From: a virus
Virus record (IMG/VR): IMGVR_UViG_3300033149_005620
Span: 1-56,561 of that record
Strand: one strand, 5' to 3'
DNA: 56,561 nt
Below are positions 2,954-5,070 of the stretch, one piece after another. Below the pieces are notes generated by a model, which was not told where the DNA came from, ran no database searches, and was given only the letters and a program-made list of their open reading frames with translations. The stretch's first letter is position 1. Every line of letters begins with the position of its first letter. The translations under genes and the position numbers were made by a program.

Positions 2954-3346
2954 TCAGGTATCCCACTTCGAGCTGTATCTGCGCCTGTAATCAATGAAGC
3001 AAATTATGCTTCCGCTGGCAACGGTACCGGCGCTGTCGATGGTCAAATAGCTCCCTGCGTCCACATTCTTGTCAATGGACTTACTCGCAATGGTCCAGGG
3101 CGCCGAGTCCGTCGAAGCCACTACCGTTGCGAGCGTTGAAGAGTTGCGCTTTAAGTTGACCGTGACCTCGGTGCCACCTTGCGTTGCCCGGTGCTGGATC
3201 CCGAATTTCAAAATCTTGATTGGGCCTTTGGGATAGAACCTCTTCACCAGGGTGTTGTCACCGTTTATGAGGACCGAATCCTGATAGGCATGGAAGTGAA
3301 GGCGCTCAACAACGCCATACTGTGCATCACTATAAAATGAGGGCAT
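2954..3346 (-). CDS. capsid decoration-like protein, paralogue 2
   Basis: 130 residues, nearly the same sequence as the neighbouring 3419-3811 product from about residue 30 to the end (shared FYPKGPIKILKFGIQH, TQGGTEVTVNLKRNSS, TDSAPWTIASKS). Differences are concentrated in residues 5-30. No catalytic motif; an alternating polar/hydrophobic pattern suggests an all-beta fold. Being directly downstream of the major capsid gene fits a head decoration or minor virion protein (inference). The variable N-terminal part may set where each copy sits. Confidence 0.6.
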   Translation of the reverse strand: MPSFYSDAQYGVVERLHFHAYQDSVLINGDNTLVKRFYPKGPIKILKFGIQHRATQGGTEVTVNLKRNSSTLATVVASTDSAPWTIASKSIDKNVDAGSYLTIDSAGTVASGSIICFIDYRRRYSSKWDT

Positions 3347-3418: not shown

Positions 3419-3811
3419 CTAGACGTCCCACTTAGTGCTGTAGCGCCGCCTGTACTCGATGAAACAGATTATAGATCCTGTCGCAACGGTACCTGCGCTG
3501 TCCACGGTGAGATAGGAGCCCGCGTCGCAGTTCTTGTCGAGCGACTTGCTGGCTATGGTCCACGGTGCTGAATCCGTGGAGGCAACAACTGTAGCCAGCG
3601 TTGACGAATTCCTTTTGAGGTTAACTGTTACCTCGGTACCGCCCTGGGTCGCGATGTGCTGGATCCCAAACTTCAAGATCTTGATCGGACCCTTGGGGTA
3701 GAACCTCTTCACGAGAGTTTTATCCCCGGCCAGCGTCTTCTCCGCCTGGTGTGCGGTGAGATAAAGCCTCTCCCTCACGCCGTATTGTGCGTCGTCGTAG
3801 AAACTTGGCAT
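3419..3811 (-). CDS. capsid decoration-like protein, paralogue 1
   Basis: 130 residues, start at 3811, 18 bases after the capsid stop. Paralogue of 2954-3346: same length, both begin MPSFY.DAQYGV and end with an RRRYS.KWD block. Probably the ancestral copy because it is adjacent to the capsid gene. Short beta-rich phage proteins at this position are often head decoration or cement proteins; that role is inferred from position only. Confidence 0.6.
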   Translation of the reverse strand: MPSFYDDAQYGVRERLYLTAHQAEKTLAGDKTLVKRFYPKGPIKILKFGIQHIATQGGTEVTVNLKRNSSTLATVVASTDSAPWTIASKSLDKNCDAGSYLTVDSAGTVATGSIICFIEYRRRYSTKWDV

Positions 3812-3829: not shown

Positions 3830-4717
3830 CTATGATGCCGAATCCCATTTGAGGATTCGACACTGGGCGGCCGCTGTGTGGACGATCCCGAAGCCCCCGA
3901 GGTAATACCACGCTACCCCCTTCGACCGGCCATAGTCTGTGGGGATTTTCCCGCGCATCTCCTCGGGAACCGCAATTGCCTCGGCGACCGTATCCTCCCC
4001 AAAGAAGAACGCCCAGTCGCTCTTGGCCTTGTTCCAGGCATCGGCCGTTTTCGTATCGGCGTCCCAGGTTGTGGAATCCGCCGCTCCGCCCTTCGGAATC
4101 TGGGTCTGCTCCACGAAACGGCAATTGTCGTACCGGCCAATCTCACCGTTCATGATGAGCTGGAAGCCCTGCGTCACATACTGATAGACGCCCTCAAGGT
4201 CCGTTTTGAGCTGCCGGAACGTGGACGGCCATGCGAGTACGTAGTAGTCGTCCTCAATGTAGGGCGGGATGTTCCGCTCCTTCATGGTGTCGACTACCAG
4301 CCCAATGTGCTGCTTCTTCAGGGCAACGTCGTTGGTCAGGGTCGCGGTTCCGTTCGTGGTCAGAGTAACCGCCGTGGTAGACGTCCCAGCCGTCGGAACG
4401 ACGCGAAGAACGCAGGCATTGAACTGGGCATGTGCCGCTATGTCAAAGGCCTTCTTTGCGTCATTCTTCAGGACCTTGTTGATGATCTCCGTGACCGGGT
4501 GCTCGGAAAGATTATCAAGCTTCCCGGAGTAGGGAACGCTATTGCCATACTCATCAATGGTCAAGGTTCCCTGGGTGATCGTGAATTGTGTTTCGGGCAT
4601 GGTTTTCGTTTCAGTGAGCTTCGTGCCCTGTGTCGAAACGTCACTGTATACATTCCAGTGGAACGTATCGCCTTTTTTCAGCCCCTGTTGCGTTGCATCT
4701 TTTACATCGCAAAACTG
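3830..4717 (-). CDS. major capsid protein, N4-gp56 family, exon 2
   Basis: 295 codons beginning QFCDVKDATQQG and continuing with HWNVYSDVSTQG, GNSVPYSGKLD, LSEHPVTEII and KNDAKKAFDIAAHAQF, the conserved core of N4-gp56-type capsid proteins. The family's conserved N-terminus (LGGYMYS, ...QPL..FR) is absent here but is encoded by exon 1 at 4966-5070. Joining the two restores a 330-residue protein with FR followed directly by QFCD. A TTG at 4720 gives an apparent start, but it has no ribosome binding site and lies at the intron's 3' end. The product forms the head shell, with portal and scaffold encoded just upstream. Confidence 0.93.
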   Translation of the reverse strand, partial: QFCDVKDATQQGLKKGDTFHWNVYSDVSTQGTKLTETKTMPETQFTITQGTLTIDEYGNSVPYSGKLDNLSEHPVTEIINKVLKNDAKKAFDIAAHAQFNACVLRVVPTAGTSTTAVTLTTNGTATLTNDVALKKQHIGLVVDTMKERNIPPYIEDDYYVLAWPSTFRQLKTDLEGVYQYVTQGFQLIMNGEIGRYDNCRFVEQTQIPKGGAADSTTWDADTKTADAWNKAKSDWAFFFGEDTVAEAIAVPEEMRGKIPTDYGRSKGVAWYYLGGFGIVHTAAAQCRILKWDSAS

Positions 4718-4965
4718 CAATCTGTTACTTTCATGACCGCATGGGCGGACGCCCTGTTGGGGTAGCCTCCCCGGTTTCTCTTGAGGCGTTATGCCGGGGT
4801 TCAGACTGTCGCATCACTGGATATTGGTATTTTCTCTCCAGTGCCCGCTCGCTCAGTCGTTCACGCTGCCCACACGCCCTCCTTTAGGGTGGCGTTGCTT
4901 GCGCCTTGTCGCCCGCGCCCGGGCTTCCAAGTCAATCAGAGCGGGTTTTACTTCCGCCATTCTTA
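4718..4965 (-). ncRNA. group I self-splicing intron in the capsid gene
   Basis: 248 nt, no open reading frame of note. Group I signatures: exon 1 ends in U and the intron ends in G. The exon end UUCCGU pairs with the internal guide GCGGAA (P1), with the U.G wobble at the splice site. CCCGCUC pairs with GAGCGGG (P3); CUUG/CAAG and GCCCG/CGGGC form P4 and P5; ACGCC/GGCGU fits P6a. GACU pairs with AGUC (P7) inside a typical GAACGACU element, CACUGG/CCAGUG forms P8 and CCCCGG/CCGGGG forms P9. The intron opens with UAA in phase 0, so unspliced RNA gives only a 35-residue peptide. With no homing endonuclease it is probably not mobile by itself. Confidence 0.9.
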
Positions 4966-5070
4966 ACGGAACTTGATCAGAGGCTGAACAGCCATCCTGA
5001 GCTTTTTACTCAGGTTGAGTGAATACATGTACCCACCCAAGGTATTCACCGCCCATAACTGTCCAGGCAT
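4966..5070 (-). CDS. major capsid protein, exon 1 (35 codons)
   Basis: ATG at 5070 with AGGAG eight bases upstream. The product begins MPGQLWAVNTLGGYMYS and ends QPLIKFR, the standard N-terminus of N4-gp56-type capsid proteins. The next codon is the intron's UAA. Exon length is exactly 35 codons, so the intron is in phase 0 and splicing to base 4717 keeps the frame. The strong ribosome binding site here and its absence before exon 2 support one spliced gene. Confidence 0.92.

Follow-up and report, generated by a model that had tools for sequence, protein, structure and literature searches.

A split major capsid gene and its insert

The window, by which we mean the entire 56,561-nt stretch of viral DNA analyzed here (IMG/VR record IMGVR_UViG_3300033149_005620), carries a major capsid gene that falls into two exons separated by exactly 248 nt, a layout already described in a preceding sequence-only reading and evident from direct inspection of the sequence (Table 1). 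Exon 1 has the sequence MPGQLWAVNTLGGYMYSLNLSKKLRMAVQPLIKFR, encodes a peptide ending in ...LIKFR and is preceded by an AGGAG motif 8 nt upstream of its ATG, which bears out the earlier claim of a 35-codon N-terminal exon with a good ribosome binding site. Assignment of the protein to the N4-gp56 type was likewise corroborated by the NCBI model TIGR04387 (curated cut-off, 60 bits), against which the product of the joined exons scored 68.0 bits and thus above the cut-off, versus 57.7 bits for exon 2 without exon 1. Exon 2 also matched Pfam family PF13252 (Phage_capsid_3; 32.4 bits), PHROGs assigns the protein to a major head protein family, and annotated relatives, e.g., those of Vibrio phage 1.232.O and Escherichia phage PTXU04, are named major capsid protein.

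Table 1. Positions of the capsid exons, the insert and its predicted structural elements in the window.
Feature	Position	Strand	Remarks
Exon 1, major capsid gene	5070-4966	minus	ATG (5070) to CGT (4966), 35 codons
Group I intron (putative)	4965-4718	minus	exactly 248 nt; no ORF >50 codons
Exon 2, major capsid gene	4717-3830	minus	295 aa, QFCDVKDA..., first codon CAG
Internal guide sequence GCGGAA, 3' strand of P1	4957-4952	minus	pairs with exon end UUCCGU, 4971-4966
P3, 7 bp	4945-4939 (CCCGCUC) with 4850-4844 (GAGCGGG)	minus	encloses P4, P5 and P6
P4	4931-4928/4908-4905	minus	inside P3; covariation and covariance model
P5	4924-4921/4914-4911	minus	inside P3; covariation and covariance model
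P6	4903-4901/4866-4864 and 4898-4897/4869-4868	minus	inside P3
P7, guanosine-binding helix	4860 and 4858-4854 with 4808-4803	minus	covariation in relatives; model match in window
P8 hairpin CACUGG/CCAGUG	4843-4838 with 4820-4815	minus	loop is the HEG position in some relatives
J8/7 AUGCGA	4814-4809	minus	
P9 hairpin CCCCGG/CCGGGG	4799-4794 with 4774-4769	minus	
3' end motif GTAACAGATTG	4728-4718	minus	terminal (omega) G at 4718

The capsid gene is immediately followed by two neighbouring genes of 130 aa each (2954-3346 and 3419-3811, minus strand), 84% identical and without a PHROG match, which possibly encode duplicated head decoration proteins. Other ORFs of the window gave, among the PHROG and Pfam matches listed, an integrase, a DarB-like antirestriction protein, SbcC/SbcD-like subunits, an inorganic pyrophosphatase and glycosyltransferases, so that the phage is possibly temperate.

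The insert starts with UAAGAAUG, opening with an in-frame UAA, and closes with a G. Direct reading and comparison with relatives agree with the earlier notion that UAA is the first intron codon, such that a full-length capsid protein would require splicing. The terminal G had been pointed out as well, and the GTAACAGATTG ending recurs in introns at the same site of related capsid genes (identical in L117, L131 and L145, nearly so in L015 and L102). As to coding content, the HNH, GIY-YIG and LAGLIDADG endonuclease families were all lacking among the first 25 PHROG and Pfam families listed over 36 ORFs of the window.

All helices drawn in the sequence-only reading could be located. The last 6 nt of exon 1 (UUCCGU) form the 5' strand of P1 and pair with GCGGAA, placing a U.G at the 5' splice site, and a P1 with U.G also follows differing exon sequences in other genes that carry related introns. 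P1, P3, P4, P5, P8 and P9 are already present in the unconstrained MFE fold of the window RNA, from which P7 is missing because it is a pseudoknot that such folds cannot represent. Forcing the core costs 3.2 kcal/mol relative to the unconstrained fold, and the MFE z-score of -2.1 is modest on its own. P7 consists of A4860-U4803, a lone bulged C4859, and G4858 to G4854 paired with C4808 to C4804, so that the bulge lies beside G-C, A-U, C-G and U-A; bulged C and G-C pair together presumably constitute the usual group I guanosine site, by analogy with P7 of Tetrahymena. Hallmarks of group I introns found here thus include a P1 with U.G, the terminal G, a P3/P7 interlocked core with P4-P6 and P8, a bulged base beside a G-C pair in P7, and restoration of the host reading frame upon removal of the insert, the latter evident from the TIGR04387 score and from the corresponding junction in relatives (see below).

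A phage intron subfamily with a covarying core

The core motif of the window, AAAAC-N5-CUGAUNGACUNGGA (also AAAAC-N5-CTGATNGACTNGGA), is common to the same-site introns L117, L131 and L134, and its second form recurs in viral contigs, with at least 120 such stretches. Of 108 matches to the motif, 101 have a 6-7 bp P3 partner after GACT, with P3 sequences that are many and varied. Covariation was assessed in an alignment of 41 non-redundant cores, leaving out the window and counting the named P3-P8 structure: 96.7% of cells were paired, and double compensatory changes amounted to 222, versus 61 in shuffled and at most 27 in slid controls. The P7 pseudoknot is part of the covarying set and contains no broken pair; pair 101-159 occurs as AU (27), GC (13) or CG (1), pair 107-154 as AU (28), GC (11) or UA (2), and the pair flanking the P7 bulge varies between AU, GC and CG among relatives. 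Since the seed motif fixes some P3/P4 letters and extraction demanded GACT...AGTC in P7, independent evidence comes from the variable pairs alone, which span P3, P4, P5, P6, P7 and P8.

A covariance model built from the 41-core alignment, with the window held out, gave a single match in the window (4953-4800, minus strand; 101.8 bits, E = 7e-25), with an alignment displayed without any non-standard pair. With the Rfam group I model RF00028, the window yielded no match either at the gathering threshold or at E <= 10; five other tested sources of the subfamily (six in total) also remained unmatched at E <= 10, and the three gathering matches in 19 subfamily loci all fell away from the subfamily cores. 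The outcome named beforehand as refuting, a group I model at background, thus did occur with RF00028, and the held-out subfamily model was strongly positive. We consider the RF00028 test insensitive because it also missed the other tested subfamily introns despite their covarying group I core; its failure is explained by this covariation together with gaps of the model that have been published (PMC11878797), where RF00028 is stated to be without subgroups ID and IE and phage intron diversity to extend beyond current subgroups. The held-out match and the covarying P3-P8 fold therefore argue for an endonuclease-free group I intron of a phage subfamily to which Rfam is blind. P3-P8 topology and P7 anatomy are shared with RF00028.

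The lack of an RF00028 match might also be taken to indicate a dead intron or an inactivating insertion, leaving the phage defective or exon 2 used on its own from the UUG at 4720, where an ORF with such a start is indeed present. This scenario is very improbable in view of core helices, splice-site U.G and terminal G that are all intact, an exon 1 that is intact and conserved, the failure of exon 2 alone to reach the capsid cut-off, and the fact that upstream of 4720 no good candidate for a ribosome binding site is apparent.

Sequences flanking the subfamily introns were typed with PHROG and Pfam. On the 3' side, major head proteins accounted for at least 20 of 48 (14 of PHROG 1357 and 6 of the P22-type PHROG 283), and on the 5' side, ribonucleotide reductase accounted for 19 and major head protein for about 11 of 49; portal, tape measure and NrdD genes were further hosts. 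Judged by these flanks, the subfamily is concentrated in capsid and ribonucleotide-reductase genes. A GIY-YIG endonuclease is found in some members (L140). In ctn9Y15, a 'P22 coat protein', and in Roseobacter phage CRP-118, a ribonucleotide reductase is annotated as two CDS around a subfamily core; here we relied on the annotated split CDS, as the junctions obtained by splice-site search were neither unique nor clean, and this automatic search chose wrong sites in some loci, e.g., L117 and L131. None of the annotated phage records examined notes the subfamily as an intron. In four loci (L277, L307, L336, L345), no more than about 400-550 nt separates two subfamily introns.

One capsid site, different intron types

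Through exon 2, we retrieved 80 related viral capsid loci. The junction of exons 1 and 2 is contiguous in 76 of them, in agreement with the earlier statement that FR-QFCD is uninterrupted in intronless relatives. Three loci (L002, L015, L049) have an insert of 721-768 nt at precisely the site of the window, and in a fourth, L013, a different intron interrupts the gene about 5 nt upstream, leaving 77 of 80 without an insert at the exact site. This pattern of empty and occupied relatives, the helices present in the unconstrained fold and the held-out model score together argue that the insert is not a chance arrangement.

A clean insert where relatives have none would also be expected of other insertions, such as a group II intron, an intein, an IStron or a transposon remnant; with a group I P3/P7 fold that covaries within the family, we deem this hardly conceivable. 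Taken individually, an intein was rejected since the first codon of the insert is a stop (UAA) and there is no open in-frame insertion, a group II intron since the insert has no GUGYG start and no group II Rfam match, and a transposon remnant since the insert encodes no transposase.

A motif search for the P1 arrangement retrieved additional same-site introns, bringing the total to 14 distinct sequences. The preceding exon end is TTCCGT, or TTTCGT in one case, and most of these introns end in ...AACAGATTG or near it. Lengths are 233-288 nt for those lacking a large ORF and 677-768 nt for those with an endonuclease ORF, with 393 nt as a further length. LAGLIDADG enzymes of solved structure, I-CvuI and I-CreI, were matched by the endonucleases; in a profile search against solved structures, that of L002 matched I-CvuI with E = 1e-7, and a Pfam search of L002 gave no LAGLIDADG family. 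RF00028 weakly matches the type A introns at this site (36.2 bits for L002, about 22-23 for L015 and L049), and the insert of L013 scores 84.5 bits. Introns of at least two types, endonuclease-bearing as well as endonuclease-free, occupy this capsid site. By a simple pairwise score, the core nearest to that of the window is L290/L341, ahead of the same-site L117, and we therefore do not claim a single lineage for the same-site introns.

Several of these loci deserve mention in their own right. The homologous capsid gene of L013 (4619-6030) has two RF00028 introns, the one near the window's site and another of 58.6 bits. In L134 (626-3237), the gene is in four pieces (626-730, 976-1149, 2141-2776, 3172-3237) interrupted by a single intron belonging to the window's subfamily and by two of RF00028 type (87.8 and 92.3 bits). 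L102, L110 and L120 carry 288-nt HEG-less inserts at the same site that resemble the LAGLIDADG-bearing introns, pointing to independent loss of the endonuclease by both intron types found there. The same-site intron of L131 (6066-6458) belongs to the window's subfamily and has about 145 extra nt in P6 containing a short Cys-rich reading frame (CPICKKV...CVECGW), a possible endonuclease remnant.

Proposed splicing, mobility and relation to known introns

Taken together, we interpret the insert, at a probability of roughly 93%, as a self-splicing, HEG-free group I intron after codon 35 of an N4-gp56-type capsid gene, most likely a selfish or near-neutral element; intron anatomy, homology and restoration of the reading frame confirm the gene architecture proposed in the sequence-only reading, and from them we infer catalysis and splicing in vivo. 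During splicing of the late transcript, P1 would form as UUCCGU at the end of exon 1 docks onto the internal guide GCGGAA, whereupon a guanosine bound in P7 (at bulged C4859 by G4858-C4804) would attack after U4966. The freed exon 1 would then attack after the terminal G4718, joining ...FR to QFCD.... On an unspliced transcript, translation would halt at the UAA right after codon 35.

The sequence-only reading had gone further in suggesting that capsid output could be coupled through splicing to RNA folding or host state, and one could envisage a domesticated regulator whose splicing efficiency sets capsid output by folding, translation or host state. The stop just past the 5' splice site would make the capsid strictly splicing-dependent, and group I splicing in T4 needs translation and correlates with growth state, according to the title of a paper by Sandegren and Sjoberg (2007) cited in PMC8541194. 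However, this coupling remained unsupported: occurrence among relatives is sporadic, the site being vacant in most of them, different intron types occupy the same site, and beyond the catalytic core there is no conserved part able to sense a signal. We thus rate a regulatory role as improbable; owing to the sporadic distribution, a selfish or neutral element fits better than a conserved switch. Its mobility partner was most likely lost or is supplied in trans, since LAGLIDADG endonucleases occur in same-site relatives and GIY-YIG enzymes in subfamily relatives at other locations; mobility would accordingly have vanished or be borrowed from the endonucleases of same-site relatives.

Spliced introns in phage capsid genes are already known. 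For mycobacteriophage LittleE, splicing of the major capsid intron was demonstrated by RT-PCR and N-terminal protein sequence, with the intron type left unsettled as 'most likely a group I' (PMC3706429). As in the window, exon 1 ends in U and the intron in G, but the LittleE intron is 819 bp long, with a putative LAGLIDADG endonuclease encoded in the opposite direction, and interrupts a different capsid gene. The intron of BAKA and Optimus, tested for splicing by RT-PCR, is similarly short (265 bp) and resides in a virion structural gene, yet in that of a minor tail protein and with a different sequence (PMC3706429). By description in the same source, lactococcal phage Tuc2009 is comparable in having a group I intron in a capsid subunit gene. 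Nuclease-free status and the weakness of RF00028 for some subgroups are known as well: Bastillevirinae phages have group I introns, some of them nuclease-free, but these were found with Rfam/GISSD models, noted to miss dissimilar introns, and the word 'capsid' is absent from the text of that report (PMC11878797).

As far as the literature searched shows, what is new is the compact subfamily, which possibly corresponds to subgroup ID or IE, and the concentration of its members in genes for capsid proteins and ribonucleotide reductase. Tentatively, and at somewhat less than even odds, we envisage an undescribed, Rfam-invisible subgroup of compact phage group I introns, characterized by AAAAC-N5-CUGAUNGACUNGGA, a very short P4-P6 and an AUGCGA J8/7, that is specialized on genes for ribonucleotide reductase and for major capsid proteins of unrelated families, in which case many 'split' or 'missing' metagenome capsid genes would be spliced. 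Because gene callers split such capsid genes in two, the N-terminus or the whole gene is lost from capsid-based surveys and phylogenies of environmental phages. The intron family is common in viral metagenomes yet missed by Rfam, and the subfamily covariance model from the present analysis could detect such introns. The capsid site itself is a natural case for studying how introns lose and regain mobility within the phage gene of highest expression. An unannotated intron of the subfamily is present in Desulfovibrio/Nitratidesulfovibrio phage 7757 (PV062637.1:81354-81486, L396; 92 bits), and a sequence 73% identical to the intron consensus, with no listed genes around it, lies on a Rhodanobacter denitrificans plasmid (NZ_CP088981.1:39560-39685, L399).
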